DNA of 64,000 nt, taken from the NCBI RefSeq assembly GCF_003386535.1, contig NZ_QTTN01000013.1, positions 1 through 64,000 of the forward strand, read 5' to 3'. Position 1 is the stretch's first letter, and each line of letters starts with the position of its first letter. Made by a program: the position numbers and the translations under genes. The notes beneath the pieces are model-generated. The model had not been told where the DNA came from. It made no database searches and saw only the letters and a program-made list of their open reading frames with translations. The stretch comes from Paenibacillus taihuensis. Lineage in GTDB: Bacteria > Bacillota > Bacilli > Paenibacillales > Paenibacillaceae. This document shows positions 3,743 to 21,414 of the stretch, piece by piece.

Positions 3743-6106
3743 TTACTTCAATTCTGCAACCGTAACCCCGGCGCCGCCCTCGCCATATCGTCCGAGGCGG
3801 TAGCTCTTCACATGCTTATGCCTGCGCAGGAAGTCGGTAATTCCCGTACGCAGCACGCCTGTGCCGATGCCGTGGATGATGTATACTTGCCCGAATCCAG
3901 CCAAGAACGACTCGTCGAGGAATCGGTCGACCTCGATCATCGCTTCCTCCAAGTTCGCCCCGCGCAGGTCCAGCTCGGTGCGAACGTTCTCATCGCGCGT
4001 ACGCTTCAGGCTTGCGGCAATCTTCGGCTGCTGCGTCTTCTTCGTCTCCGCACGCTTCACAAGCTCAAGATCGGTAAGCGCGACCTTCATCTTCATAATG
4101 CCGAGCTGCACTGTAGCATCATTGCCCGACAGATCAACCACATGGCCGCGCTGGTTCAAGCTGTAAACCATAACCTCGTCGCCCGCCTCAATACGCTGCG
4201 GCTTATCGGTTTTCTGCTTCGCTCCAGCCGCCCGCCGTTTCTCCGGCGTCGCTTCATCCAGCTTGCGGCGCGCTTCGGTCAGCTTGTGATCCTTCACCGC
4301 CGCGCCTTCTTCCTGCGCGAGCTTGCGCAGATCCGCGATAATCTCTTCCGCCTCGCGCCTCGCCTTCAGCATCACTTCGCGCGCCTCATCCTGAGCCTTC
4401 GCAAGCAGCTTCTCGCGCTGCTCCTCGAACTTCTGCAGCTCCGCTTCATGGCGCGCACGCTCCGACTCCAGCTGCTTACGCAGCGCCTCGGCCGTTTGCC
4501 GCTCCGCTTCCGCTCCGATCCGATTCTCCTCCAAGGAGGCGATCATCGACTCGACGCGGACATCCTCCTCGCTCACTTCGCCGCGCGCGTGATCGATGAT
4601 GCTGCGCTGCAAGCCAAGCCGCTCCGCAATGGCGAACGCGTTGCTTCGGCCAGGAACGCCGATGAGCAGACGATAAGTCGGGCTCAGCGTCGCAATATCG
4701 AATTCCATGCTCGCGTTAATAACGCCTTTGCGGTTGTAAGCATAAGCCTTCAATTCGCTATAATGCGTCGTCGCCACGATGCGGCAGTCAAGCTTATGAA
4801 TATGCTCAAGAATCGCTATCGCAAGCGCAGAGCCTTCCGCCGGGTCCGTTCCGGCACCAAGCTCATCGAGCAGAACGAGACTCTTCGGCGTCATATTGGT
4901 TAGAATACGGATAATATTGGTTAAATGACTGGAAAACGTACTTAGGCTCTGCTCAATGCTTTGCTCATCGCCAATATCGGCATAGATCGCATCGAATACG
5001 CACAGCTGGCTGCCGTCTTCGGCAGGCACGAACAAACCGGACATCGCCATCAGGCTGAGCAGGCCGATCGTCTTCAGGGAGACCGTTTTACCACCGGTAT
5101 TCGGACCTGTAACGATGATCGCTGTAAAGTCATTGCCAAGCTCGACATCGATCGGCACCACATGCTCGCGCGCAATAAGCGGATGACGTCCGCGGCGCAG
5201 CTTGAAGTAGCCCCTGTCATTCATACGCGGCAGCGTCGCTCCCATCGTATGCGCCAGACGCGCCTTCGCAAAGGCAAAATCAAGCTGTCCGAGCACATCC
5301 AAATCCAGCATCAAGTCATCGGCATATTCAGCCGTCTGCGCCGTAAGCTTTTGCAGGATTTTCTCAATCTCGCGTTCTTCGGCAAGACGCAGCTCACGCA
5401 GCTTGTTGTTCATGACGACAATCGCTTCCGGCTCGATAAACAGTGTAGCGCCCGAGCCCGATTGGTCGTGGATAATGCCGCCGAAATTCGAGCGGTACTC
5501 CTGCTTCACCGGAATAACGTATCTGTCGTTCCGAATTGTAATGATGGCATCCTGCAGCATCTTCTGCACCGATGTCGAGCGGATCATTCCCTCAAGCTTC
5601 TCGCGCACGCGCGATTCGCCGCTTCGCAGCTCTCTGCGGATATTCGCGAGCTCGGCGCTTGCGCTGTCCAGCACTTCCGCCTGATCGTCGATGCAGAAGA
5701 AGATCGCATCCTCAAGCACCTTGTGCTCCGTCAGCTGTTCCGCCATCCCGGCAAGCAATGGAATCGGATCGTCCTCGTGCAGCTGCTCGATGTGACGTTT
5801 GACCCGGCGCGAACCGCGGACTGTCTCGGCAATTGCCAGCAGCTCCGACGGGTTCAGCGTCCCGCCGATCTTCGAACGAAGCAGCTGCGGCTTAATATCG
5901 ACAACGCCGCCGAATGGCGCGCTGCCTTTCAGCCGGTCGGCCTTGTAAGATTCATCCGTAATGGCGAGCGAGTGCTTCACCATCTCCAAGTCGGAGTTTG
6001 GCTTAAGCGCCAGTGCAGCCGCTTTTCCAAGCGAAGTCGCCGCATGCTGCTCTAATTTATTTACAATTTTGGCATAATCGAGTGTGTGTAAAATTTTGTT
6101 GTCCAA
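3743..6106 (-). CDS. mutS2: endonuclease MutS2 (Smr-domain MutS paralogue)
   Basis: MutS2 is an ATPase linked to suppression of homologous recombination and, in B. subtilis, to rescue of collided ribosomes. The product has the MutS core, a Walker A GPNTGGKT at about residues 334-341, a downstream LLDELGAGTDP Walker B segment, a long charged coiled coil (about 520-640), and a C-terminal Smr domain with LDLRG and HGIGTGVLR. I chose the TTG at 6106 (reading DNKILHTLDY) because GAGAGGAG lies about 10 nt upstream; this gives 787 residues, close to the 785 of B. subtilis. The open frame extends to 6166 without a ribosome-binding site. A TATAAT (6132-6137) lies just upstream. It heads a minus-strand cluster with yshE. 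Confidence 0.93.
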   Translation of the reverse strand: MDNKILHTLDYAKIVNKLEQHAATSLGKAAALALKPNSDLEMVKHSLAITDESYKADRLKGSAPFGGVVDIKPQLLRSKIGGTLNPSELLAIAETVRGSRRVKRHIEQLHEDDPIPLLAGMAEQLTEHKVLEDAIFFCIDDQAEVLDSASAELANIRRELRSGESRVREKLEGMIRSTSVQKMLQDAIITIRNDRYVIPVKQEYRSNFGGIIHDQSGSGATLFIEPEAIVVMNNKLRELRLAEEREIEKILQKLTAQTAEYADDLMLDLDVLGQLDFAFAKARLAHTMGATLPRMNDRGYFKLRRGRHPLIAREHVVPIDVELGNDFTAIIVTGPNTGGKTVSLKTIGLLSLMAMSGLFVPAEDGSQLCVFDAIYADIGDEQSIEQSLSTFSSHLTNIIRILTNMTPKSLVLLDELGAGTDPAEGSALAIAILEHIHKLDCRIVATTHYSELKAYAYNRKGVINASMEFDIATLSPTYRLLIGVPGRSNAFAIAERLGLQRSIIDHARGEVSEEDVRVESMIASLEENRIGAEAERQTAEALRKQLESERARHEAELQKFEEQREKLLAKAQDEAREVMLKARREAEEIIADLRKLAQEEGAAVKDHKLTEARRKLDEATPEKRRAAGAKQKTDKPQRIEAGDEVMVYSLNQRGHVVDLSGNDATVQLGIMKMKVALTDLELVKRAETKKTQQPKIAASLKRTRDENVRTELDLRGANLEEAMIEVDRFLDESFLAGFGQVYIIHGIGTGVLRTGITDFLRRHKHVKSYRLGRYGEGGAGVTVAELK

Positions 6107-6279
6107 GCGGGCACAACTCCTCTCGTTACTTATTATAGCGCAGCAGCGCGGTGTATGCCATGACAAGCGGAACTCATGAATGACAGCCTGAAAAAAGGTA
6201 ACACTACATGTACACGAGGAGTCATACCAACTCCGTGTAAGGAAGCTCTTCCAAATAAAAGGCAGGAGGTATTTCCATT

Positions 6280-6630: not shown

Positions 6631-6725
6631 GCAATTCGCAGCATATTCAACAGATCGTCACAGTAATTTTACCCATGGCAAGGTATACTAGTTAAGTATA
6701 ATTCCAAGCTATGGAGGGTTATCTG

Positions 6726-7118
6726 GTGAAAAAATTACTGCTCATTGCGTTCACGATGGTTGCAGCGGTTCTCGTTCTGGCTGCTTGCGGGGCGAACAAA
6801 GCCGACAATTCGAATACAAGCGGAAGCACTGGCGTTGAAGAAACAGGCACAGCAGCTTCGGCGAAAATTACGATCAAAGCGAAGCGTTACGAGTTCGATC
6901 AGCCTGTCTATACGATTAAGAAAGGCGTGCCGACTGAAATTACGCTGAAATCGGAAGATGGCATGCACGGCGTCGAAGTATCCGATTTGAAATTGAAACT
7001 GGATTCTGATGAGCCGAAGGTCGTCACGATCAACGATGCGGGCGAATATGAATTCCACTGCGACATTATGTGCGGAAGCGGCCACTCCAAAATGGTTGCC
7101 AAGCTCGTTGTTGAATAA
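6726..7118 (+). CDS. cupredoxin lipoprotein with a CuA-type copper site
   Basis: A short signal sequence ends in the lipobox LAAC, so the protein should be lipid-anchored outside the membrane. After a Ser/Thr-rich linker comes one cupredoxin domain with a histidine in MHGVEV and then CDIMCGSGHSKM. The spacing C-x3-C-x3-H-x2-M plus the upstream His is the CuA ligand set of cytochrome c oxidase subunit II. Unlike subunit II there are no N-terminal membrane helices and no oxidase genes nearby. It may accept or deliver copper or electrons; that role is inferred. I chose the GTG at 6726 because TGGAGGG lies 7 nt upstream and the product then starts VKKLLLI. It is followed at once by a terminator. 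Confidence 0.85.
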   Translation: MKKLLLIAFTMVAAVLVLAACGANKADNSNTSGSTGVEETGTAASAKITIKAKRYEFDQPVYTIKKGVPTEITLKSEDGMHGVEVSDLKLKLDSDEPKVVTINDAGEYEFHCDIMCGSGHSKMVAKLVVE

Positions 7119-7169: not shown

Positions 7170-7337
7170 ATTCCGATTATTAATGCTGTCCATCAATAAT
7201 GCTGATGAAATGCACATTTTGCCCGCTATATTGGTTTGACCAACAGCAACTTATAAGAAACCTTTATAGGCGCTCTATTCCAACGGCAGCCGGTTGCTGA
7301 TACGATGTGTTCAACAATCAGATAAAGGGTGGTCAAC

Positions 7338-8027
7338 ATGGGTAAACTAAATGGACAAGTAGCGGTCATAACAGGCGCGGGAACAGGGCTCGGCCGGGCA
7401 ACGGCGATTGATTTTGCTCGTGTTGGTGCGCATGTTGTACTGCTTGGAAGGCGGCTCGGGAAGCTTGAAGAAACGGCTGCGCTGATCGAAAGCGATGCTG
7501 CTGTTGCCGGCGAGAGCAAGGTGCTAATTGTGGCTTGCGACACTTCTAACGAAGAGGCAGCCCAAGCAGCTGTAGAGCGGATCATCGCCGAATTTGGCAA
7601 GATCGATATTCTCGTCAACAACGCTGCAGTATTGGAGCCGGGCAAGGTGATCGAACTGACTGCTGCAGAGTGGGCGCTTCAGCTTAGCGTTAACTTGACG
7701 GGACCCTTCTTGATGACACGGGCTGTACTGCCGATCATGCGTCAGTCTCGTTTTGGCCGGATCATCAATATCACTTCAGGTCTCGCCTCGAACGGTGCCG
7801 GCGGTTATGCTGCATACAGCGCATCCAAGGCGGGGCTCGAATCGCTGACGCGGACGACGGCGGATGAAGAGCATGACTACGGGATTCTGGTGAACGCGTT
7901 CAATCCGGGTACGATTCGCAGCGAAATGCATGCAACGGGCAAAGACCCGCATCAAGTGACGCGAGCGCTTGTTGACCTCGCATCGCTGCCGCAGAACGGC
8001 GTGACCGGTTCGATCGTGGTGTATTGA
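7338..8027 (+). CDS. short-chain dehydrogenase/reductase
   Basis: This is a classical SDR of 229 residues. It has the NAD(P)-binding TGAGTGLG, NNAA after the fourth strand, and a catalytic Ser-Tyr-Lys set in NITSG and YSASK. The arginine cluster LGRR after the second strand favours NADP(H), as in 3-oxoacyl-ACP reductase-like members. The substrate cannot be told. The C-terminus is a little short for the family (usual about 245). The ATG at 7338 has AAAGGG 8 nt upstream; an in-frame GTG at 7329 overlaps that site and is less likely. Confidence 0.85.
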   Translation: MGKLNGQVAVITGAGTGLGRATAIDFARVGAHVVLLGRRLGKLEETAALIESDAAVAGESKVLIVACDTSNEEAAQAAVERIIAEFGKIDILVNNAAVLEPGKVIELTAAEWALQLSVNLTGPFLMTRAVLPIMRQSRFGRIINITSGLASNGAGGYAAYSASKAGLESLTRTTADEEHDYGILVNAFNPGTIRSEMHATGKDPHQVTRALVDLASLPQNGVTGSIVVY

Positions 8028-8146: not shown

Positions 8147-11100
8147 TTAGTTCTCCGAAATCAGCTCAATCCATTCATTATATTCCGTTTGCAGCTTGGA
8201 GTACTCAATCTGCAGCTTACTGTGGTCCGTTTGCAGCTTGGCGTGCGAGTCACGAAGCTGCTGCTCCGCTTGGCCGGCCTCCTGCAAAGCGGCTTCCAGC
8301 TCGGCGAGGCGTTCGCTAATTTGCTCCGCTTCCTGCTTCGCTTTGATTGCTTCCTCTTCGCTTAGCAGCAGCTGCTCCAGCAGCCCGGCTTCCGCCTCCG
8401 CATGCGCTGCAGCTTCCTGCTTCGCAAGCTGAATCTCCGAGTCAGCCATCTGCACCTGATCCTGCAGCTTCGCCGATGCTTCCTCCGCAACTCGCTCGGC
8501 TTCCGCCATGTGCTGGCGCGCTTCGCGCATCAGGTCGAATGCGCGATCTTCTGCCATTTGCAGCTTGGCGGTGAGCTCATCCTTCTGCTCCGCGATCTGC
8601 TTCAGCTCCTGCTGCAGCGCATCGCGTTGTTCTGCCAGCTGATGCTGCTGATACTTGCTGCCTTCAGCCGATTGCTGCGTTTCTTTCAGCTGCGCGCGCA
8701 GGTCAGCAAGCTGTTCCTCTAGCTCTTGCAGCGCTTCTTGGCGGCGCTGCTCGTTCTGCTGGATGGAAGCCATCGTCTGCTCCATCTGCGAAATCGCATG
8801 CTCGCGCTCGTGAAGCTGCTGCTCGAGACGGCTAACCGTCTTGCGAAGCAGCTCGTCCTGCTCGGCTGCTTCCAGAGCGAACAGCTCTGCTTCCTCTTCT
8901 GCCTCTCCCAGCTTCGCCTGCATAACGCTCAGCTCGCGTCCGCTCTCATCAAGCAGCGCGGAGAGCGATTCGCGCTCGCTCTGCCATGTCGCCTGAGCGC
9001 TTGCTGCCGCTTCTTCCAGCGCCATGTAACGTCGCTCCGACTCGGCGCGGAGCACTTCCAGCTCTTGCTTATATTTAGCGGCAACTGCCGCCGCTTCATG
9101 TTCGCCTTCTTGCAGCGCTTCTTCAAACAGCGCTTGCGCCGTGCTCCGTTCCTGCTCAAGCACGCGTGCTGCTTCCTCGCGCTCCTGCGCAAGCTCGGCT
9201 TGATGCTTCTCGCGCAATTGCGCTACCGCTGCCGCGGCTTCCTCACGGGCCACGGCAAGTGCTGCTGCCGCTTCCTCGCGCTCGATCTCAAGCGTGGTTT
9301 GCGACTCTAGGCGCAGCTGCGACAGCTGCTCCTCAGCCGCTGCGGCTGCTTGCGCCGCTTCGCTGCGAAGACGGTCGAACCGCTCGCGTGCCGCTTGGCG
9401 GATACGCTCGACTTCCGCTTCTGCATTCGCGCGTGCTTGCTCCGCTTGCTGCAGCAGATCTGCCCGCGTTTCCTCGAACATCTCAGCCGCTGCAGTAGCT
9501 GCAGCCTCATGCAGCATGCGTTCTCTGCTGAACTCTTCTTCGTGAGCCGCAATCGCATCCGCTAGCTGCATCTCTGCTGCTTTGCGTTCGCTAGCCAGCT
9601 GCGCTTCGAGCGCTTTGAATTCGCGCGCGTGCTGTTCGCTTGCCGTACGCAGTGCGATAGCTTGCTCTTCGAGCTCAAGCTCTTGCTCGAAGCGCTGCTC
9701 CGCCATCGCTGCTTCGAGCTGTTCACGCAGCTGCGCAAGCTCGGCTGCTGCCGCTTCGCGTGCTTCTGCCAGCAGCGCTGCCGCTGCTTCTTGCTCGCGA
9801 GCCAGCTCTGCACGGCTCGCTTCGCGCGTCTGCTCCAGCTGCCCTTGCAGCGCCGTTTGCTCGCGCTCGTGCTCTTCGCGTGCTCTGCGCAGCGCGATAG
9901 CGCCGGCTTCGAGCTCAAGCTCTTGCTCGAAGCGCTGCTCCGCCATCGCGTCTTCAAGCTGCTCGCGCAGCTGCGCAAGCTCGGCCGCTGCCGCTTCGCG
10001 CGCTTCTGCAAGCAGCGCTGCCGCTGCCTCTTGCTCGCGAGCCAACTCTGCGCGGCCTGCTTCGATTGCCTGCTCCAGCTGCGCTTGGAGCGCCGCCTGC
10101 TCGCGCGCATGATCTTCGCGCACAGTGCGCAGCGCGTTCGCCTGCTCTTCGAGCTCAAGCTCCTGCTCAAGTCGCAGCTCAGCCATCGCGTCTTCAAGCT
10201 GCTCGCGCAGCTGTGCAAGCTCCGCTGCTGCAAGCTCACGTTCGCCAGCCAGCTCTGCCGCTGCCGATTCCACCACATGCTCAAGGCGTCCTTGCAGTCC
10301 CGATCTGACTTGCTCCAGCTCCACACGAGCTGCTTCCTGATCATTCTCCCGCTCCGCTGTAAGCTCTATCCATACGCGTTCAAGCTCCGCCTTGGAAGCT
10401 GCCACGGCCTCGCGCTCAGTCGCGAGCAGTGCCTCCAGCTCGCCGCGCACTCGCGTCAGCTCCACTGCTGCCGCTTCACGCTCACTTGCAAGCTCCTCTG
10501 CCGCAAAATGAATCGCTTCGTCCATGCGTTCTTGCAAGCCGACGCTTGTCCGCTCCAGCTCTTCGCGCGCAGACTCGCGCTCGCTAGCCAGCTTCGCTTC
10601 CAGTTCGCCGCGCACGCGCTCAATCTCTTCTCGCGCTACTTCACGCTCGAACTCCAGCGTCTCCGCCGCGTTCTCGCGCTCGCCGGCGAGCAGTGCTTCA
10701 AGCTCGCCGCGCACTCGTGCGAGCTCCGCTGCTGCCGCTTCGCGTTCATTCGCTAGCTTCGCACCCGCTGTGCGCGCAGCTTCCTCCATGCGTCCTTGCA
10801 GGCCGGCGCTTGTCCGCTCCAGCTCTTCGCGCGCCATCTCGCGCTCATGCTCCAGCTGTGATTGCAGCTCACCATGCACGCGCTCTTGCTCCGCCTGCGC
10901 AGCAGCCGCTGTTTCACGCTCGTTCGCCAGCTGAGACTCGAGCTCACCGCGCACGCGTCCAAGCTCTTCGCGCGCCACTTCACGCTCGAACTCAAGCGTC
11001 TCTTCCGCGTTTGCACGCTCACTTACCAGCTTCGCTTCCAGCTCAGCACGCACGCGCTCCTGCTCCGCCGCTGCCGCCTCACGCTCACTCACCAGCTTCG

Positions 11101-12097
11101 ATTCCAGCTCAGCACGCACGCGCTCCTGCTCCGCCGCTGCCGCCTCAAGCTCACTTACCAGCTTCGCTTCCAGCTCAGCACGCACGCGCTCCTGCTCCGC
11201 CGCTGCCGCCTCAAGCTCACCACGCAATCGCTCCTGCTCGTCCCGCTCGCTCGCGAGCAGCTCTTCCAGCTCGCCGCGCACGATCGCCAGCTCCGCTGCA
11301 GCCTCTTCGCGCTCGCGCGCAAGCTCCGCTGCCGCTGCGCGGACCGCTTCCTCCATGCGCCCTTGCAGCATGGCGCTTGTCCGCTCCAGCTCTTCGAGCG
11401 CCGACTCTCGCTCGCTCTCCAGCTCCGCCTCGAACTCGTTAAGCACTCGCTCTTGCTCTGCTGCCGCAGCCGCACGTTCACTCGCTAGCTTCGCCTCAAG
11501 CTCACTGCGCACTTGCTCAAGCTCCGCCGCAGCTGCCCCTAGCTCGTTCGCCAGCTTCGCCTCCAGCTCGCCGCGCAGTCGCTCCAGTTCTTCTCGCGCA
11601 ACCTCGCGCTCGAATTCGAGCGTCTCCTCCGCAGCCGCACGCTCACTTGCAAGCTTCGCTTCAAATTCTCCGCGAATCCGCTTTTGCTCAGCTTCAAGCT
11701 CTCCGCGCACTCGCTCTCGCTCAGCCGCCGCGGATTCACGCTCGCTCGCAAGCTGAGCTTCCGCTCTCACGCGCTCCGCATCAATCTGCTGCTGCAGCTC
11801 ATCGAGCATCAGTTTTACTTGCTCAAGCTCCGCAACAGCAGCTCTGCGACGCTCCTCAATCTCGTGCATGCGCTCGTTCTCGCCGCGCAGACGGAAAACA
11901 TCTTCAGCCATATGTACTGCCGCAAGCATGGAAATTCTCGGCAAATCCAGCATCGGATATCCTTTTGCCAGCTTGTGCATATTCTCATCAACAAGCGCTG
12001 CGATGCGCTTGATGTAGTCGGGGTTCGTGTGTCCAGCCAATTTAAATTGGTTTCCGTATATATCAACCGTTACTCGTGTCCGATCGGCAGCGTTCAT
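8147..12097 (-). CDS. zapA: giant ZapA: FtsZ-ring protein domain fused to a very long coiled coil
   Basis: Residues 1-95 are a clear ZapA domain (TRVTVDIYGNQF, then the helical LVDENMHKLAK and MLAAVHMAED). In the family this domain binds FtsZ and bundles its filaments at the division site. ZapA is usually 85-150 residues; this product has 1316. From about residue 80 to the end it is almost pure Ala/Glu/Arg/Leu/Gln coiled coil with no visible cysteine, signal peptide or membrane span. The coil contains 22-residue repeats (about 11028-11230 in DNA), 80-residue repeats (about 9590-10240) and a recurring ELERTS-GLQGRMEEA segment. The last 35 residues are regular heptads (SKLQxEY) ending in NEWIELISEN. 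As a continuous helix the coil would be near 180 nm (about 1220 residues at 0.15 nm). It lies downstream of pheT as in B. subtilis, with GGAGG before the ATG. No frameshift is visible. Confidence 0.9.
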   Translation of the reverse strand: MNAADRTRVTVDIYGNQFKLAGHTNPDYIKRIAALVDENMHKLAKGYPMLDLPRISMLAAVHMAEDVFRLRGENERMHEIEERRRAAVAELEQVKLMLDELQQQIDAERVRAEAQLASERESAAAERERVRGELEAEQKRIRGEFEAKLASERAAAEETLEFEREVAREELERLRGELEAKLANELGAAAAELEQVRSELEAKLASERAAAAAEQERVLNEFEAELESERESALEELERTSAMLQGRMEEAVRAAAAELAREREEAAAELAIVRGELEELLASERDEQERLRGELEAAAAEQERVRAELEAKLVSELEAAAAEQERVRAELESKLVSEREAAAAEQERVRAELEAKLVSERANAEETLEFEREVAREELGRVRGELESQLANERETAAAAQAEQERVHGELQSQLEHEREMAREELERTSAGLQGRMEEAARTAGAKLANEREAAAAELARVRGELEALLAGERENAAETLEFEREVAREEIERVRGELEAKLASERESAREELERTSVGLQERMDEAIHFAAEELASEREAAAVELTRVRGELEALLATEREAVAASKAELERVWIELTAERENDQEAARVELEQVRSGLQGRLEHVVESAAAELAGERELAAAELAQLREQLEDAMAELRLEQELELEEQANALRTVREDHAREQAALQAQLEQAIEAGRAELAREQEAAAALLAEAREAAAAELAQLREQLEDAMAEQRFEQELELEAGAIALRRAREEHEREQTALQGQLEQTREASRAELAREQEAAAALLAEAREAAAAELAQLREQLEAAMAEQRFEQELELEEQAIALRTASEQHAREFKALEAQLASERKAAEMQLADAIAAHEEEFSRERMLHEAAATAAAEMFEETRADLLQQAEQARANAEAEVERIRQAARERFDRLRSEAAQAAAAAEEQLSQLRLESQTTLEIEREEAAAALAVAREEAAAAVAQLREKHQAELAQEREEAARVLEQERSTAQALFEEALQEGEHEAAAVAAKYKQELEVLRAESERRYMALEEAAASAQATWQSERESLSALLDESGRELSVMQAKLGEAEEEAELFALEAAEQDELLRKTVSRLEQQLHEREHAISQMEQTMASIQQNEQRRQEALQELEEQLADLRAQLKETQQSAEGSKYQQHQLAEQRDALQQELKQIAEQKDELTAKLQMAEDRAFDLMREARQHMAEAERVAEEASAKLQDQVQMADSEIQLAKQEAAAHAEAEAGLLEQLLLSEEEAIKAKQEAEQISERLAELEAALQEAGQAEQQLRDSHAKLQTDHSKLQIEYSKLQTEYNEWIELISEN
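9590..10240 (-). repeat. in-frame tandem repeat, 240-nt (80-residue) unit inside zapA
   Basis: The segment encoding ELAQLREQLE...QELELE...ELAREQEAAAALLAEAREA recurs at an exact 240-nt spacing, with the ELAQLREQLE codons near 9711, 9951 and 10191. There are two full copies and most of a third. Copies differ by scattered substitutions and keep the frame. Eighty residues is not a whole number of heptads. Confidence 0.88.
11028..11230 (-). repeat. in-frame tandem repeat, 66-nt (22-residue) unit inside zapA
   Basis: A block coding for AAAAEQERVRAELEAKLVSE recurs at 11041, 11107 and 11173, exactly 66 nt apart and nearly identical in DNA. Twenty-two residues equals two hendecads. More diverged copies continue on both sides, and a longer segment elsewhere repeats at 264 nt (4 x 66; 10551 and 10815). 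Confidence 0.88.
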
Positions 12098-12189
12098 AGG
12101 GGTGATCCTCCTATAATTTTCAAGATTCTATGCGACAATCGTTGCCATCTTCCACAATCATTCAAGATACAAGGTCTGACAAATAAGAT

Positions 12190-12303: not shown

Positions 12304-14748
12304 CTATTTACGCAATTCTGCTGCAAAAGATTGTTCTAAATTTGCTACAACCTTGCCGTGCAGCTCCGTTACTTCTTCATCCGTCAATGTGCGCTCTGCG
12401 TGGCGGTAAACGAGCGACAATGCGACACTCTTCTTATCTGCTCCGAGCTTCTCGCCGGTATAGATGTCGAAGATGCGAACCGACTCCAGCAGCTCGCCTG
12501 CTGTCTCGCGAACAGCGCCTACGAGCTTGCCAGCTTGCACATCGCTGTTCAGCACAACTGCAATGTCGCGCTCCATCGCCGGGTAACGCGGCAGCGCTTT
12601 GTACACAATATCGAAGCTCGCTGCATCATACAGCGGCGCTAACTCTACTTCAAGCACATACGTATCGCCAAGATCGTGGTCGTTCTGCGTCGTAGGGTGC
12701 AATTGGCCCATGTAGCCGATCGTTACAGGACCGCGCTCGCCTGCGAACACAATAGCTGCCGTGCGGCCCGGGTGCATATGCTCCGGCTGAGCCGCTTCGT
12801 AGCTAATATCGCCGCTTACGCCGAGCAGATCAGTGATCGTCTCGATCATGCCTTTAATATCGTAGAAATCGTAAGCTTCCGCTTTGCGATTCCAAGCTGC
12901 GACATTTTTGTTGCCCGTCAGCAAGATCGCCAAACGATGCTTCTCATGCGGCAGACGAGACAGCTCCGCTTCTTCCGTGTGGAAGACGCTGCCGATTTCG
13001 AAGATGGCCACATCGTCGTTCTTCCGGTTGCGGTTGTAAGCCGCTGTTTCGAGCAGCTGCGGCAGCAGACTTGTGCGAAGCACGCTGCGGTCCTCGCTCA
13101 TAGGAAGCGCCAGACGAACAGGATACAGGTCTGCGCCAGTCAAAGCTGGGAACAGCTTCGTGCGATCCGGATGCGTGAACGAGTAGCTGATCACTTCATG
13201 AAGGCCTGCATCTGTCAGACGTTTGCGCAGCTCACGGCGGATCGCCTGCGGCTTCGTCAGTGCGCCTGGTGTTGCCGCGCCTTCAATTGCTGTCGTCGGA
13301 ATGTTGTCGTAGCCGTACAAACGGGCTACTTCTTCAATCAAGTCAACGTCGCGTGTAATGTCGCCGCGGCGCGAAGGTGTCTGAACGGTAAATACCCCAT
13401 CTGCGGAAAGTTCAAACGGGAACTGCAGCCGGCCGAAGATCGTCTCGATCTCAAGCTTCGACAGATCCGTACCGAGGTAGCGGTTGATTTTCTCGATGGA
13501 AACCTTAACAACCGTCTGCTGCGGCTGTTCAGCAAGCTCTTGAACGATGCCTTCCAGCACGAGACCGTCTGCATACTTCTCCATCAGAGCCGCTGCACGA
13601 TTAAGGGCAGGCACGACACGAGCCGGGTCTACGCCTTTCTCGAAACGAACGCTCGACTCGGAGCGAAGGCCGACTTGACGGGATGTTTTGCGGATTGTGC
13701 CGCCATCGAAGCGAGCCGATTCCAGCAGGATATTGACCGTACCGTCAGTGACTTCCGAAGTTGCACCGCCCATTACGCCTGCAAGCGCAATTGGCTCAAT
13801 GCCGTTCGTAATAACAAGCATGCTCGAATCCAGTTTGCGCTCTTGGCCATCAAGCGTCTCCATTACTTCGCCCTCATGCGCCATACGAACCACAATACGT
13901 CCGCCTTCTACTTTATCAGCATCAAAGGCGTGAAGCGGTTGGCCGTACTCCAGCATGACGAAGTTCGTAATGTCAACGACGTTGCTAATCGGGCGAATGC
14001 CTGCCGCCATTAGTCGGTTCTGCATCCATTGCGGCGAAGGACCAATCTTAACGCCTTTGATATAGCGTGCGGAGTAGTGCGAGCACTGCTCCTTCGCTTC
14101 AATACGAACGGACACATGCGCAGAAGCGTGATCTGCCGAATCGCTCACGCGGTTATCCGGCAGCTTAACGGGACGGCCTGTCAGTGCGCCTACTTCATAG
14201 GCAACGCCAAGCATGCTGAGGCAGTCCGAACGGTTCGGTGTGAGGTCAAGCTCAAGCACTTCGTCGTCGATAGCCAGCACATCAAGAATCGATGCGCCAA
14301 TCGGCGTGCCTTCAGGCAGGACAAGAATGCCTTCTTGCTGCTCTTTAGGAAGCAGCTTATCGTTCAGGCCAAGCTCCTTGGCCGAGCAGATCATACCCTG
14401 GGACTCTACGCCGCGTAGCTTCGCGCGCTTGATCGCGAAATCGCCTGGAAGCACTGCGCCGATTGTCGCAACGGGAACGAGCTGTCCTGCTGCAACGTTT
14501 TTCGCGCCGCAGACGATTTGAAGCACTTCAGGACCGCCAACATCAAGCGTACAAACGCTCAGTTTATCCGCATCCGGATGTTTCTCGCGAGTAAGCACGT
14601 GTCCTACAACGACACCTGTTACTCCTTTATTGCGGGATTCAACGACGTCGATCTCGATGCCGCCGCTTGTCATCAGTTCCGCCAGCTGTTCGCCGGTGTA
14701 ACCGTGCAAATCGATATATTCACTTAGCCATTTATATGAAACATTCAT
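12304..14748 (-). CDS. pheT: phenylalanine-tRNA ligase beta subunit
   Basis: This is the tRNA-binding and editing subunit of the alpha2-beta2 enzyme that charges tRNA-Phe in the cytoplasm. The 814 residues are near the usual 800-805 of Bacillota. Visible parts are the N-terminal tRNA-binding fold (about 40-155, VVGHVLTREKHPDADKL), the B3/B4 editing region, the B5 domain (about 405-480), the catalytic-like core, and the C-terminal ferredoxin-fold anticodon-binding domain (RYPAMERDIAVVL...). It starts 18 nt after the pheS stop and shares its T-box-controlled transcript. Confidence 0.97.
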   Translation of the reverse strand: MNVSYKWLSEYIDLHGYTGEQLAELMTSGGIEIDVVESRNKGVTGVVVGHVLTREKHPDADKLSVCTLDVGGPEVLQIVCGAKNVAAGQLVPVATIGAVLPGDFAIKRAKLRGVESQGMICSAKELGLNDKLLPKEQQEGILVLPEGTPIGASILDVLAIDDEVLELDLTPNRSDCLSMLGVAYEVGALTGRPVKLPDNRVSDSADHASAHVSVRIEAKEQCSHYSARYIKGVKIGPSPQWMQNRLMAAGIRPISNVVDITNFVMLEYGQPLHAFDADKVEGGRIVVRMAHEGEVMETLDGQERKLDSSMLVITNGIEPIALAGVMGGATSEVTDGTVNILLESARFDGGTIRKTSRQVGLRSESSVRFEKGVDPARVVPALNRAAALMEKYADGLVLEGIVQELAEQPQQTVVKVSIEKINRYLGTDLSKLEIETIFGRLQFPFELSADGVFTVQTPSRRGDITRDVDLIEEVARLYGYDNIPTTAIEGAATPGALTKPQAIRRELRKRLTDAGLHEVISYSFTHPDRTKLFPALTGADLYPVRLALPMSEDRSVLRTSLLPQLLETAAYNRNRKNDDVAIFEIGSVFHTEEAELSRLPHEKHRLAILLTGNKNVAAWNRKAEAYDFYDIKGMIETITDLLGVSGDISYEAAQPEHMHPGRTAAIVFAGERGPVTIGYMGQLHPTTQNDHDLGDTYVLEVELAPLYDAASFDIVYKALPRYPAMERDIAVVLNSDVQAGKLVGAVRETAGELLESVRIFDIYTGEKLGADKKSVALSLVYRHAERTLTDEEVTELHGKVVANLEQSFAAELRK

Positions 14749-14766: not shown

Positions 14767-15798
14767 TCACATTCGGACAAACTGGCTCAGGAAGCGCAGA
14801 TCGTTCGTATAGAAATGACGAATATCGTCGATGCCGTACTTGAGGAGCGCGATACGCTCTACGCCCATACCGAATGCGAAGCCGCTGACTTCGTTCGGAT
14901 CGTAGCCGCCCATCTCGAGCACGCGAGGGTGAACCATGCCGCAGCCGAGAATTTCGAGCCAGCCTGTTTGCTTACACATCCGGCAGCCGTGACCGCCGCA
15001 CTGTACGCAAGTGACATCCACTTCTGCGCTCGGCTCCGTGAATGGGAAGAAGCTCGGACGCAGACGAATTTGCGCCTGCTTGCCGAACATTTGCTGCACG
15101 AACTGCAGCAATGTGCCTTTCAAGTCGCTCATGCGGATGTTCGGTCCGATTACGAGGCCTTCGATTTGGTTGAACTGGAACGAATGCGTCGCGTCGTCAT
15201 CGTCGCGGCGGTATACTTTGCCCGGGCAGATGACTTTAACCGGCTTGCCGTTCGTCGCTTTCATCGTGCGGACTTGAACCGGCGACGTGTGCGTACGCAT
15301 CAAGATATCTTCTGTTACATAGAAGGAATCCTGCATATCGCGTGCAGGGTGGTTCTTCGGCAGGTTCAGCGCTTCGAAGTTGTAGAAGTCGGATTCGACC
15401 TCAGGACCTTCCGCAATCGTATAGCCCATGCCGATAAAAGCATCCTCGATCTCCTGCGCCACTTTGTTCAGCGGGTGGATCGAGCCTGCGCCAAGCTTCT
15501 TGCCCGGCAGCGTGACGTCAATGGTCTCCTCGCGAAGGCGGTTCTCGGTCTCTGCTTGCTGGAATGCAGCTTGCTTCGCTTCAATAACCTCTTCAATCGC
15601 GGCACGTACTTCGTTACCGACTTGGCCGATAACTGGACGCTCTTCAGCGCTTAAGCTGCCCATGCCACGAAGAATTTCCGTGAGCGCGCCTTTCTTACCC
15701 AAATATTTGACCCGCAAATCATTCAACTGCTGCGGTCCGCCTACTTGCTGCAGCTCCTGCAGCGCCTCGACGCGCAATGCTTCCAAACGCTCTTTCAT
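14767..15798 (-). CDS. pheS: phenylalanine-tRNA ligase alpha subunit
   Basis: This is the catalytic subunit of PheRS. Class II motifs are visible: [11 protein letters not shown], the motif 2 region [18 protein letters not shown], and motif 3 [15 protein letters not shown]. There is a [12 protein letters not shown] segment, as in many bacterial PheS. I prefer the ATG at 15798 (343 residues, close to 344 in B. subtilis). The ATG at 15810 overlaps the AAGGG ribosome-binding site, which is better placed for the second ATG though still rather far. Expression is controlled by the T-box leader upstream. Confidence 0.95.
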
Positions 15799-15824
15799 CT
15801 TTTGACCCATTCCCTTCTCTCGGC

Positions 15825-17204: not shown

Positions 17205-17954
17205 TTAACGCTTCTTGCGCGTTGCCGATACGACAAGCGATGCGCCTGCGAGCACAACGGCTGCAATCGCAAGGCCAAGCGTTACATTCGATTTCGTGCT
17301 ATCTTCGTCAGCGGTTGTCTGCTGAGCAGTCTCTTGTGCTGGTGCAGAAGTGTCGCTCGATACTATATTGCCGGCGTTAGCCGTTCCCGTCGAACCCTCC
17401 GACGAGGTTGCAGCATCCTTGCCGCCTGCTGGCTCAGACGCCGTACCGCCGCCATGACCGTTGTCGCCTGCTCCTGCAGCTGCTGCCGTAACTGTCGTTA
17501 CAGACGCAGGGTACTCAGCACCATCGCCGCCAACCCATTCCACAACCGACTTATCGCTGTATGTTTGGTATGCTTTCCAGACGAGCTGCTTCGCATCTTC
17601 CGCTACTTTGCCGGAAATACGAAAATCGGTAAATTCCGTTTGCGCCAAGCCTGCGCCTTCCGCAGTCCATGTAATCGCAGTGATCGCTTTCGTGCTTGCA
17701 TCGCGCTCAAGCTCATATTTCCAGCCGTCTTTCGGCTCAACGCGGCTTACTTTCACACCATCAGCCACTTTTACTTTAACAGTCGTTGTCGTTACATTCT
17801 CTTTCTCACTCGGCACGCGAACCGCGAATACCTGATAGCTGTTCTGTTCTACTGTCGGCGGCTGCACCGTTACGTGCGCGCTGGCGATGCCTGCGAACAG
17901 GAACAGCGAAAGTGCTGTCAGACCAAGCACGGACCATTTTTTCATTGTGTTCAT
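17205..17954 (-). CDS. ycnI: YcnI-family (DUF1775) copper-binding membrane-anchored protein
   Basis: The 249-residue product has a signal peptide ending ASA, so the mature protein starts HVTVQPP. In B. subtilis YcnI this N-terminal histidine forms a mono-histidine brace for Cu(II). A DUF1775 domain spans about 25-150, then comes a Ser/Thr/Gly-rich linker with a small GHGGG patch, and last a single membrane helix with a basic tail (ATRKKR). The ATG at 17954 has GAGGAGG 9 nt upstream. It is the last gene of a minus-strand group with a CopC-CopD fusion and a two-component pair, fitting a role in extracellular copper handling. Confidence 0.9.
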   Translation of the reverse strand: MNTMKKWSVLGLTALSLFLFAGIASAHVTVQPPTVEQNSYQVFAVRVPSEKENVTTTTVKVKVADGVKVSRVEPKDGWKYELERDASTKAITAITWTAEGAGLAQTEFTDFRISGKVAEDAKQLVWKAYQTYSDKSVVEWVGGDGAEYPASVTTVTAAAAGAGDNGHGGGTASEPAGGKDAATSSEGSTGTANAGNIVSSDTSAPAQETAQQTTADEDSTKSNVTLGLAIAAVVLAGASLVVSATRKKR

Positions 17955-18066
17955 ATTGGATATATCCTCCTCATTACTGCTTACTACGAGGAGTATAGCC
18001 CAGAACAATACCGAGGACATGACTCGATAGGGCTATATGATTGTTACAATATATTGTCGCTCGTGC

Positions 18067-18777
18067 TTACTTCTTCGGTATAAGTCCCTTCTCTAGCGCA
18101 TAGCGCGTAAGCTGAACCCGATTGTCCAAATGCAGCTTCTGCAAAATGTTCTTCAGATGGTTCTTCACCGTATGTTCGGAAATGCCGAAGCTCTCCGCGA
18201 TTTGCCGGTTGGAGCTGCCCGATGCGACACCTTCCAGCACTTCGCGCTCCCGCTGTGTTAGTGCCGTATGGTAGGTATCATCCTCCGAAGCTCCCGCAGC
18301 TGAACCTGCGGACGCTTGGTGCGGCGCCTGTGAAGCCCTGCTGCCGCCATTAAACTCTTGCAGCATCCGGAACGCCAGCTCTTTGGAGAGCGGCGCCTCA
18401 TCGACTGCTACGGCGCGCAAGTACTCCAGCCACGCCGATGGCGACAAGTTCTTAAGCAGGTACCCTTGCGCACCGCGCTTAATGGATTCGAACAAATCAG
18501 TGATATCATCGGATACGGTGACCATAATGATTTTGATCCGAGGATCGATCGATTTAATATGCTGCGTCGCTTCCATCCCGTTCATCACCGGCATGTTGAT
18601 GTCCATCAGCACGAGATCCGGGACGAGCTCCGCAGCCATTCGCACTGCCTGCTCGCCGTTCGCCGCTTCCCCTACGATGACAAAATCCGCATCGCCGCTG
18701 ACGATCTCCCGCATTCCTTCACGTCCGTGCGGATGATCATCCGCAAGCAGGACGGTGATCGGCTTTTGCTCACTCAT
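18067..18777 (-). CDS. NarL/LuxR-family response regulator of the copper operon
   Basis: A receiver domain (residues about 8-125) has the acidic pair DD at 13-14 and the phosphoacceptor D59 in LVLMDINMP. A Ser/Ala-rich linker follows, then a C-terminal LuxR-type helix-turn-helix (TQREREVLEGVASG...NRQIAESFGISEHTVKNHL). The start at 18777 overlaps the kinase stop codon (ATGA), so the two are translationally coupled. GGAGGCAGGG precedes it. It lies between copper genes; control of that operon is inferred from position. B. subtilis uses the unrelated YcnK repressor at the matching locus. Confidence 0.9.
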   Translation of the reverse strand: MSEQKPITVLLADDHPHGREGMREIVSGDADFVIVGEAANGEQAVRMAAELVPDLVLMDINMPVMNGMEATQHIKSIDPRIKIIMVTVSDDITDLFESIKRGAQGYLLKNLSPSAWLEYLRAVAVDEAPLSKELAFRMLQEFNGGSRASQAPHQASAGSAAGASEDDTYHTALTQREREVLEGVASGSSNRQIAESFGISEHTVKNHLKNILQKLHLDNRVQLTRYALEKGLIPKK

Positions 18778-19628
18778 CGTTGCCCTGCCTCCTTGATGAC
18801 TTCTACTATAGTGCCTTGCCCCAGTTCTTCCTGGCTCCGCACTTGGAATTGCCACCCCATCGCTTCTGCGCGATCTCGCATCATGCGAACACCGAAACGC
18901 CCTTTGGCGGTCAGCTGCTCCACCCGTGCGCCAACGCCGTCATCCGCGATTGTACAGTGGAAGCCAGTGCCTTCAGCAGCTTCATCAGGCACAGCCTGCA
19001 CGATCAGCTGAGCGGCATGCGCGTGCTTCTGCACATTCAGCATCGCCTCGCGGACGATAGCGAGCAGTTCCACCTTCTCCTTGCTGCTAAGCAAGCTGTC
19101 GCCGAGGCGCCAGTCCAGCTGCGCGTCCAGCCCGCCGCGGCGCAGCTCATCCGCCATCTCGCGGACGGCTTGCATCCACTGCACGTCCGTACGCGTTGGC
19201 TCGCTGCGCAAACTCGCGATCGACTGGCGCACATCGTCATACACGTGGCGCACGGTGCGTCGCAGCTGGTGCGCCGTCTCCATGACCTGCTCGTTATCCT
19301 TCGCATGCTCGAGCTTGTCGAGCTTCACCGACAAGAGGAAGAGCGACTGCGAGATGCCATCATGAAGCTCGCGCGCCAGCTGCTCGCGTTCCATGAACGC
19401 CGCTTTGGCGCTCTTGGCCTGCTGCAGCGAATCATTCGTTTCTTCCAGCATCTGAAACAGCTTGATGACGAGCGTGGCCGTTACCGTCATGACGATGACA
19501 GGCGTCAGCCAGTTGCCAAGCTCCATCGATACGTACGGAAGCAGTATCGTATGCCTGAGATACTCCCACAACGCAATCGTCAACGAAGGCGTCCACAAAA
19601 TAAACCATTTGATCCGCTTATATGACAT
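18774..19628 (-). CDS. membrane sensor histidine kinase (HisKA_3 type)
   Basis: Two membrane helices near the N-terminus (about 9-31 and 40-58) leave almost no extracytoplasmic domain. A short coiled coil leads to the HisKA_3 box with the phosphoacceptor H89 in LARELHDGISQS. The C-terminal HATPase domain has REAMLNVQKHAHA (N box), DDGVGAR and a GRFGVRMMRDRAE G-box. This is the NarX/DesK layout. The lack of a sensor domain suggests it reads the membrane or a partner protein. AAGGAGGAG lies upstream of the ATG. It is coupled to the regulator by a 4-nt overlap. Confidence 0.9.
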   Translation of the reverse strand: MSYKRIKWFILWTPSLTIALWEYLRHTILLPYVSMELGNWLTPVIVMTVTATLVIKLFQMLEETNDSLQQAKSAKAAFMEREQLARELHDGISQSLFLLSVKLDKLEHAKDNEQVMETAHQLRRTVRHVYDDVRQSIASLRSEPTRTDVQWMQAVREMADELRRGGLDAQLDWRLGDSLLSSKEKVELLAIVREAMLNVQKHAHAAQLIVQAVPDEAAEGTGFHCTIADDGVGARVEQLTAKGRFGVRMMRDRAEAMGWQFQVRSQEELGQGTIVEVIKEAGQR

Positions 19629-19670
19629 TCGCAGTCTCCTCCTTCCACTGATCAGTTGTGGTCAAGCTTT

Positions 19671-21317
19671 CTAATAGTTACGGAATTCGGTCTTCTCAAC
19701 CGTCTCATTATCGTCTTTATCCATGACCCGAATCTCCGCCTGCCAGCGACCTGCGAACGGCACGAACGGTCCTTCTGCCGTAAACGCCGCCTTCACGAAG
19801 CCGTCAAACGTCGTAATCTCCGGATCTTCAAATGATTTGATCGGCACATCGATCGGTCCTAGATCGGTTTTATCTAACGAGAACAGGCGCAGCTGCACCG
19901 ACTTCGGTGCGCCTACCGCATCCGGCAGCCACACTTTCACGATGAACGTGTTGTCACCCGGCTTATTAGGCGTCACTCGCAGCGATAGATGCATTTTGTC
20001 GCCCATCTTGTGGTACAGCACCGGCTCGTTCGCCGGCAAAGGACTTATATAGGTAAAGAGTGCTGCGCACACGATAATAAGTGCCATTAACGCAGCATCA
20101 ATACGGAGCAGCGTCGGTATCGGAAGTTCTCCCTTGCGCACTCGCAGGTGAAGCAGTCCCCCTACGACAAGCACGAGCACGACAAGACCTGTTTTCACCA
20201 GCAGAATCGTTCCCCATGCTGTATAGAACAGATAATGCAGGGATGGCAGGAAGAGAAGCGTTAAGCCGACGCCTGTCAGAACGAGCAATGTGATGGATAA
20301 CAAAGCTGCCCGTGAGAAAATAACGGCGAAACGTCCGGCTTCCTTACGATCCGCGGCCCAGAGTGCCAGCAGCAGCAGTAAGCCGCCGACCCATACCGAA
20401 GCAGCCGCAAGGTGAACAAAATCAAACAGCACCGACGATACTTTCGGCTTAAACGCGACGGCATGGCCGCTGAAGCTTTCCACGGCTAGAATGACCGCTG
20501 CCCACAATGCCTTCATTATTGGAGCGAATCGGACGATAATAAATCCGATGAGAGCAAGCCCAAGCAGTTCCATCCATTCATGACCGATTGTCGTACGCAG
20601 GAACAGCTTGCTGTACTCCGAGCTCGGGTAGCCTTTCAGGATCTCACGCGCGTGCACGAATATATAAAGAAGCGATGCAACGAGCAGCGTCTGAAGCGCG
20701 ATCAGCTCCCACTTCTTCTGAATCTGCCGCAGTTGTTCTCCGCGTCCCCTGGCAAGCAGCGGCCATATCATAAGTCCAGCCGCCAATAGCAGCGATGCGT
20801 AGTAGACAGCGCGTACAGCATAAATAATGAATTGATTAATGGTCAGCTGGGTGGATACACTATGTCCTTCGTGACCCAGCGCTTTGTGCGGATCGAAGGT
20901 TGCGGCATCAATTCCTTCGGTCACATTGCCGATAACAAATACGTATGACCCGCTGACCGGATGTCCGTCCTCGGAGATGACCGCATATGAAACGGTGTAT
21001 ACGCCTTCTGTTAGCTTAGGCAACGGCAGTGTAAGCGTCTGTCCGTCTTTGCTCTCAGCAGGCGCTTTGTCTGTTACAGGGCGAGATTTGGAGTCGAGCA
21101 CCTTTATGGCTCCGACCTCCGGTTCAATGGATTCATTAAAGGATAGTTCAATAGTCGCCGGGCTCTGCTGGTACTTCGCATTCGGCTCTGGCATCGTTCG
21201 TTCAAGCTCCGCATGTGCGGAAGCCCCTCCAGGCATGCCTAGGAGGATGAGACACATCCAGATGGAGAGGGCCGCTGCTTGTATAAGGGAGACTATTTGG
21301 TTTGATTTACGACTCAT
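19671..21317 (-). CDS. CopC-CopD fusion copper transport protein (YcnJ-like)
   Basis: A signal peptide ends at GGASA, so the mature chain begins HAELERTMP, the copper-binding N-terminus of CopC. The CopC domain (about 30-125) carries the second His of EDGHPVSGSY. Next comes the CopD region with eight or so membrane helices (about 160-420), then an extracytoplasmic C-terminal domain of about 130 residues. B. subtilis YcnJ has the same layout and imports copper. The start is not certain: ATG at 21317 or 21344, neither with a well-spaced ribosome-binding site. TTGACA at 21414-21409 may be its -35 element. It appears to be first in the operon with the two-component pair and ycnI. Confidence 0.88.
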   Translation of the reverse strand: MSRKSNQIVSLIQAAALSIWMCLILLGMPGGASAHAELERTMPEPNAKYQQSPATIELSFNESIEPEVGAIKVLDSKSRPVTDKAPAESKDGQTLTLPLPKLTEGVYTVSYAVISEDGHPVSGSYVFVIGNVTEGIDAATFDPHKALGHEGHSVSTQLTINQFIIYAVRAVYYASLLLAAGLMIWPLLARGRGEQLRQIQKKWELIALQTLLVASLLYIFVHAREILKGYPSSEYSKLFLRTTIGHEWMELLGLALIGFIIVRFAPIMKALWAAVILAVESFSGHAVAFKPKVSSVLFDFVHLAAASVWVGGLLLLLALWAADRKEAGRFAVIFSRAALLSITLLVLTGVGLTLLFLPSLHYLFYTAWGTILLVKTGLVVLVLVVGGLLHLRVRKGELPIPTLLRIDAALMALIIVCAALFTYISPLPANEPVLYHKMGDKMHLSLRVTPNKPGDNTFIVKVWLPDAVGAPKSVQLRLFSLDKTDLGPIDVPIKSFEDPEITTFDGFVKAAFTAEGPFVPFAGRWQAEIRVMDKDDNETVEKTEFRNY

Positions 21318-21414
21318 AGTGGGTGAAAAGTCACGTCCTTTCATTAACGATGGATGATCTCGAAAACAACTCAGCAATAGTGTACTAAAGGTAGGCGCCC
21401 AACACCAATGTCAA

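Follow-up and report, generated by a model that had tools for sequence, protein, structure and literature searches.

The zapA locus and its giant product

ZapA is the textbook small crosslinker of FtsZ. In the window analysed here, i.e. the whole stretch of 64,000 nucleotides of Paenibacillus taihuensis DNA (contig NZ_QTTN01000013.1, positions 1 to 64,000), the zapA gene (8147..12097, minus strand) constitutes one open reading frame (ORF) of 1316 amino acids (aa) with an ATG start and no internal stop, preceded by a Shine-Dalgarno-like AGGAGG (12107..12112, minus strand) that ends nine bases before the ATG. Counted from the N-terminus and encoded on the same strand throughout, the protein comprises a ZapA head (residues 1-72; 11882..12097), a rod of inserted coil (residues 73-1035; 8993..11881, the boundary being approximate) and a heptad tail of about 280 residues (1036-1316; 8150..8992), the far end of which carries a motif with the core EYNEWIELI (residues 1295-1313; 8159..8215) that corresponds to the C-terminal segment of ordinary ZapA. 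Upstream follow pheT (12304..14748, minus strand) and pheS (14767..15810, minus strand), both recognized by Pfam. A first-pass annotation made from the letters of this stretch had described a 1316-residue ZapA in its usual place after pheT, and both statements proved correct.

Identity as a ZapA orthologue

The giant protein is a true ZapA orthologue. When its first 100 residues were scanned, PF05164 was matched at 54.7 bits (E = 1.3e-14; cut-off 23.8), and a genome-wide search with this profile yielded the giant zapA as its sole match (54.9 bits). Likewise, the NCBIfam model NF010724 (ZapA) aligned with residues 3-79 at 60.7 bits (E = 9e-17). The position of the gene is orthologous as well: pheT lies upstream on the same strand in all 102 Paenibacillales zapA loci, 18-1016 bases before zapA, and zapA is also found behind pheT in 26 of 30 loci from other Bacilli. 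With regard to the fold, an AF2 model computed with an alignment places a beta hairpin at residues 7-13/16-22, a helix at 26-46 and a long helix from residue 52 onwards, so that the hairpin, the helix and the long C-terminal helix of a ZapA head are all present; from the single sequence of residues 1-200, AF2 modelled the head poorly. The closest fold matches of the head in the PDB are ZapA structures, and its profile match to 2MMV, the ZapA of Geobacillus stearothermophilus, reaches E = 2.1e-21.

FtsZ of the same genome is of ordinary size (377 aa), starts with MLEFDFE, which includes Phe4, and ends with DIPAFLRNRRNDR, the tail reading DIPAFLRNR. The N-terminal tail of FtsZ is described as being gripped by the ZapA head dimer, and a Phe at FtsZ position 4 as conserved in Gram-positives and, by implication, as involved in a similar way in the capture of ZapA (PMC12216130).

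A Pfam scan of the full-length protein returned no row at all, ZapA included, probably owing to the composition filters of HMMER; whole-protein scans can thus overlook such a protein. Neither the head region nor the whole protein retrieved a relative in protein database searches, though close orthologues exist. Other coil-extended proteins may be hidden in the same way from composition-corrected searches, given that the head alone scores well. An identity as an SMC protein was rejected: TIGR02168 reached only 22.3 bits against a cut-off of 567.35 over residues 1048-1315 and TIGR02169 17.5 bits against 729.4, which is attributable to coiled-coil likeness.

Architecture of the rod and the heptad tail

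The coil (residues 76-1316, i.e. 1241 residues) contains no proline and is composed of 23% Glu, 22% Ala, 12% Leu and 10% Arg. Its hydrophobic periodicity peaks at 3.64 residues (power 32.9; above chance), with local periods of 3.61-3.67 in 150-residue segments spanning residues ~75-1065 and of 3.52-3.53 in the tail. A description of the coil as heptad therefore holds for the last ~280 residues and fails for most of the rod in the window, where a plain heptad coil is ruled out by the 3.64 period. The rod is rich in Ala, Glu and Arg, and contains internal tandem repeats, two of which are discernible in the DNA of the minus strand: one with a period of 240 nucleotides (80 aa; 2.5 copies; 9621..10231) and one with a period of 66 nucleotides (22 aa, i.e. 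two hendecads; 3.1 copies with 96% matches; 11014..11220). At the protein level, autocorrelation peaks occur at lags of 11, 22, 33, 44, 80 and 88 residues, among others.

An undistorted helix has 3.63 residues per turn, and dimers of hendecad coils possess Ala-rich cores (PMC9858780). The observed period lies close to this value and, together with the Ala-rich cores, indicates that the rod should be nearly straight. Since an alpha-helix rises by ~0.149 nm per residue, ~1245 helical residues would form a rod of ~185 nm if unbroken, close to the ~180 nm of the first-pass annotation.

A parallel case is offered by FilP/Scy of Actinobacteria, where, as in the giant, a division or polarity head runs into an Ala-rich hendecad coil, the length of which is very variable, from <200 to >1000 residues (PMC9858780). 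Their head is DivIVA-like, whereas that of the giant belongs to ZapA, and the two need not be relatives. In the Pfam scan, the first 100 residues of the giant match ZapA only; the full-length scan gave no DivIVA-like row, but had also missed ZapA.

The retained C-terminal end and the site of insertion

Ordinary ZapAs of Bacilli (PF05164; 2MMV) share with the giant the head, a similar C-terminal segment and the place after pheT, whereas in the giant the end segment is preceded by ~960 residues of rod and by a heptad tail of greater length. In the 30 loci of the class that were read (82-107 aa), the ordinary proteins end like YFRLKQEYDELLKLIEEE, often with ...ADEYFRLKQEYDELLKLIEEE, and the counterpart in the giant, KLQTEYNEWIELIE, is present in a single copy at the far tip. 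Among Paenibacillales, the pattern of this segment (core EYNEWIELIE) was found in 93 of 102 proteins, always at the C-terminus, never twice, and in proteins ranging from 138 to 1740 aa. Of the nine misses, L127, L229 and L232 have frames that leave the contig or stretch, and the frames of L027, L034, L113 and L118 are broken; the remaining two are L210, with Asp for the first Glu, and L202 (123 aa), which lacks the Trp. A profile of the 93 ends is placed near the C-terminus of 27 of the 30 ordinary ZapAs (median 6.8 bits; 26 of 30 at p<0.05 versus 200 shuffles), while on the head-near stretch of 78 ZapAs from Paenibacillales, each with 400 or more residues, its median amounts to -24.1 and its maximum to 0.0. 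By both computed periodicity and end profile, the C-terminal part of the giant is thus a coiled coil that closes with the customary end segment. Because the ordinary end occurs only at the tip of the giant and not near its head, the extra sequence sits between the head and the old end. Hence, the rod is inserted inside the terminal helix, as the first-pass annotation had supposed when placing the expansion inside the coil. Short members of the order display stacked heptads before the end (e.g. two successive EEYAKLQ units in L203), which suggests that growth of the rod may have begun by heptad duplication.

Several tip residues are near-invariant among the 93 proteins with the motif (L-14 and L-7 in 93, Y-10 in 90, K-8 in 86), the Trp and its close neighbours being fixed by the search pattern itself. 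Conservation of this kind goes beyond a plain coil and would be in keeping with a one-ended tether, in which the head dimer would sit on FtsZ and the far tip on the nucleoid, the membrane, the pole or another divisome protein, linking the ring to a structure up to ~185 nm away, comparable to the separate proteins ZapA-ZapB-MatP in E. coli. A straight rod would also be longer than the Z-ring width of 80-100 nm (PMC12754632). On the other hand, ordinary short ZapAs close with a similar segment, which can be explained there without a separate partner, and no tip partner turned up, although no search was aimed at one; such a tether is, on balance, rather doubtful.

Distribution and length variation

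The size, for which the first-pass annotation had no precedent to name, is normal for this genus and not that of a single odd gene: giants occur in all 22 genomes of the genus and are widespread in the order, the longest ORF read there encoding 1740 aa. Each of the 22 genus genomes contains one ZapA with an open frame of 805-1528 aa, and the ORFs of the 21 relatives measure 767-1495 aa with the broken frames L027 and L034 counted in. Among the named members of the genus are Paenibacillus sp. OV219 and P. lycopersici, the latter with a complete chromosome. An assembly or repeat artefact was rejected on the strength of these 22 genomes, seven of which are single-contig; the giant frames in the latter also make it unlikely that long reads would collapse the repeats to a normal gene, although one of the seven (G021, locus L027) has a broken zapA frame. 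Broken frames were encountered in four of the 102 Paenibacillales loci, namely L027, L113, L118 and L034, the last of which contains an N gap. In all four, the end motif follows downstream on the same strand but in a different frame, and the breaks are either real or sequencing errors in repeats.

In the family, ZapA was detected in 391 of 394 genomes, with frames of 275-1616 aa among the matches listed (best by E-value). A sample of the order contained ZapA in 145 of 149 genomes: frames span 524-1426 aa in the 62 genomes of the own family (median 913), 139-1746 aa in the 61 genomes of the sister family f6 (median 814; at least 500 aa in 52 of 61) and 129-839 aa in the 22 genomes of nine other families (median 230). 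In a sample of the class, ZapA was present in 146 of 151 genomes, and the 134 outside the order have frames of 74-258 aa, the exception being one weak second ZapA match below the cut-off in G480. In all 40 order loci read, our own ORFs differ from the listed open frame by no more than 55 aa.

At the level of the phylum, ZapA was found in 225 of 249 sampled genomes, with nine rows outside the order (frames of 248-687 aa) among the matches listed, four of which were read. Two candidate giants among them, L254 and L255 (listed at 666 and 687 aa), were rejected as ordinary ZapAs that end in a stop, after which the next gene continues the frame, so that the open-frame figure is not a protein length for these loci; by eye, we take this next gene to be PolX-like. 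L256 and L257 (listed at 354 and 267 aa), from another family of the phylum, combine ZapA with a Gly/Pro/Ala-rich tail that is probably disordered. Moderately enlarged coils occur in Bacilli outside the order, namely in L258 (258-aa frame) and L259 (219-aa frame, with RERDELR-type heptads). The ends of these two are similar to the giant end by eye, and they are probably independent, smaller expansions.

Probable repeated regrowth of the rod

Averaged over 60 complete ZapAs with 600 or more residues, the final ~300 residues show a heptad period (3.50-3.53), while the rod itself differs between lineages: its period is 3.61-3.66 in the f1 genera g1, g2, g10, g11, g13, g14, g15 and g16, and near 3.50 in g5, g9, g17, f2, f8 and, on average, f6. 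In a PheT tree, L221 (hendecad-like) and L222 (heptad) are neighbours within one supported clade of f6; this tree was built quickly and leaves 37 of its 122 inner branches open, and the labels rely on an arbitrary 1.5-fold rule. As related lineages and species differ in repeat type, ZapA rods were probably regrown more than once, with either heptad or hendecad-like repeats.

Selection on the coil and variation of its length

In five close pairs, dN/dS amounts to 0.13-0.21 for the rod, 0.01-0.08 for the head and 0.08-0.17 for the tail, as estimated by a simple Nei-Gojobori procedure from pairs that are not independent. Ten overlapping pairs yielded 108 rod gaps, with sizes that cluster at 4, 7, 11, 18, 22 and 33 residues and a mean phase cosine of 0.60. 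When deletions of random length were simulated and aligned by the same method, the resulting 150 gaps gave 0.01; insertions and deletions (indels) in the rod thus keep the helical register. The coil and both ends are under purifying selection, the exact length is not. The two-fold spread of lengths within the genus makes a precise ruler unlikely: unbroken orthologues of this one genus measure 767-1495 aa, with which the first-pass suggestion of a distance-setting rod is hard to reconcile.

This range is what near-neutral drift in length would produce, i.e. a repetitive coil that grows and shrinks by slippage, with only helicity selected, in an ordinary ZapA carrying a tolerated spacer. Indel sizes of the kind listed above would be given by slippage on a periodic coil, and drift would also accommodate the differing repeat types of related species such as L221 and L222, as well as family members of 267-363 aa with intact ends (L139, L106, L138). 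Nevertheless, none of the 22 genus genomes possesses a short ZapA, no open frame below 524 aa was found in the 62 family genomes with ZapA of the order sample, rods were seemingly rebuilt with different repeats and yet are long, and the dN/dS of the rod is low; hence, we consider drift alone to be unlikely.

Relation to EzrA

EzrA (PF06160) is likewise a long helical FtsZ-associated protein of Bacilli. The giant ZapA gave no EzrA row at E <= 0.01, but the same full-length Pfam scan missed ZapA, so weak rows may hide. No EzrA match was obtained in the own genome either, where 8 of the 27 candidates from a first look were scored, and matches in the order are weak (50 of 149 genomes at E <= 0.001, 17 over the cut-off, best 71.9 bits), while many other Bacilli score 346-664 bits, as would be expected if the giant had taken over the work of this membrane-anchored FtsZ regulator of other Bacilli. 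Of nine weak matches of ~800 aa retrieved from the order, seven were scanned; in all seven, a TPM domain precedes an EzrA-like stretch, which exceeds the Pfam cut-off in four. With a profile built from these seven plus one relative outside the order, a long match was obtained in one of the 22 genus genomes, a weak partial one in two and none in the own genome. Elsewhere in the order, however, giant ZapA coexists with TPM-EzrA-like proteins (e.g. in G380 and G235), some Bacilli without an EzrA match have a short ZapA (e.g. G484, G495, G496), and no membrane segment was noticed by eye in the giant. As giant ZapA occurs both with and without TPM-EzrA-like proteins, the data do not support a general replacement of EzrA, and we regard a takeover as highly improbable. 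The TPM-EzrA-like proteins themselves (L242-L246, L248, L249) are a possible unusual EzrA relative in Paenibacillales.

Neighbouring genes

Downstream of zapA, Pfam identified a convergent gene for a short-chain dehydrogenase (7329-8027) and, beyond it, a cupredoxin-like protein (6711-7118); a MutS2-like gene lies at 3743-6166 on the minus strand. Judged by eye, similar dehydrogenase neighbours lie downstream of zapA in many loci of the genus. A separate cluster of the window (17205-21377) encodes a CopC-CopD-like protein, a histidine kinase, a LuxR-type response regulator and a DUF1775 protein, and is perhaps copper-related.

A possible variable-length crosslinker of FtsZ

The ZapA tetramer of E. 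coli and Klebsiella (4P1M, 9ISJ, 9ISK) belongs to the same fold class and follows a dumbbell crosslinker logic, the tetramer being bundled by four C-terminal helices (PMC12216130), and ZapA function in E. coli requires tetramerisation (PMC12754632). These proteins have a short coil, with solved chains of 88-107 residues and a structural-alignment identity to the giant of 10-16%; their tetramer is known, whereas a giant tetramer would be assumed by analogy. We judge the prospects to be evenly balanced that the giant, a true ZapA with an inserted, nearly straight rod, acts as a variable-length crosslinker of FtsZ via paired far ends. Two chains would pair through heads and rod, and the head pair would bind FtsZ as in ordinary ZapA, while the retained far ends may pair in antiparallel orientation and bundle two dimers into a dumbbell tetramer, again as in ordinary ZapA. 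The rod would have grown by tandem, register-keeping duplications. By arithmetic at 0.149 nm per residue, the head pairs would lie ~185 nm apart at full overlap and ~330 nm apart if only the heptad tails (~280 residues) overlap, in place of the short span of ordinary ZapA. Since a rod of ~185 nm exceeds the Z-ring width of 80-100 nm (PMC12754632), it cannot fit axially across the ring when straight, and would run along the ring, extend into the cytoplasm or hold distant filaments. Tentatively, one may go further and propose that giants joined tip to tip hold FtsZ-binding head pairs 185-330 nm apart, a distance beyond the entire width of a model Z-ring, and that their repeated regrowth reflects selection for reach itself and not for an exact length.

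Several observations weigh against this crosslinker. The NF010724 match remains below the equivalog cut-off of 80 bits, which leaves the protein outside this narrow model, and not all family members are giant, with intact frames down to 267 aa (L139). Pairing of the far ends is carried over from Gram-negative tetramers, and the rods might also associate differently or bend back on themselves. Moreover, indel sizes that keep the register are also expected from slippage on periodic DNA, and in view of the two-fold variation among close species, length itself could perhaps only be tolerated.

Implications

The ZapA family as such is known, but neither a ZapA beyond ordinary size nor this giant, end-conserving and length-variable architecture was found described among the open-licence PMC papers listed, where absence is weak evidence. 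The protein illustrates how composition-filtered searches can miss candidates of this kind. In many members of the order, which are culturable bacteria, ZapA is enlarged up to ~15-20-fold (1740 versus 82-107 aa) with both ends kept, and the freely varied length of the rod constitutes a natural length series for relating spacing to Z-ring architecture. Taken together, giant ZapA points to a division-site link that would be much longer than that of known bacteria.

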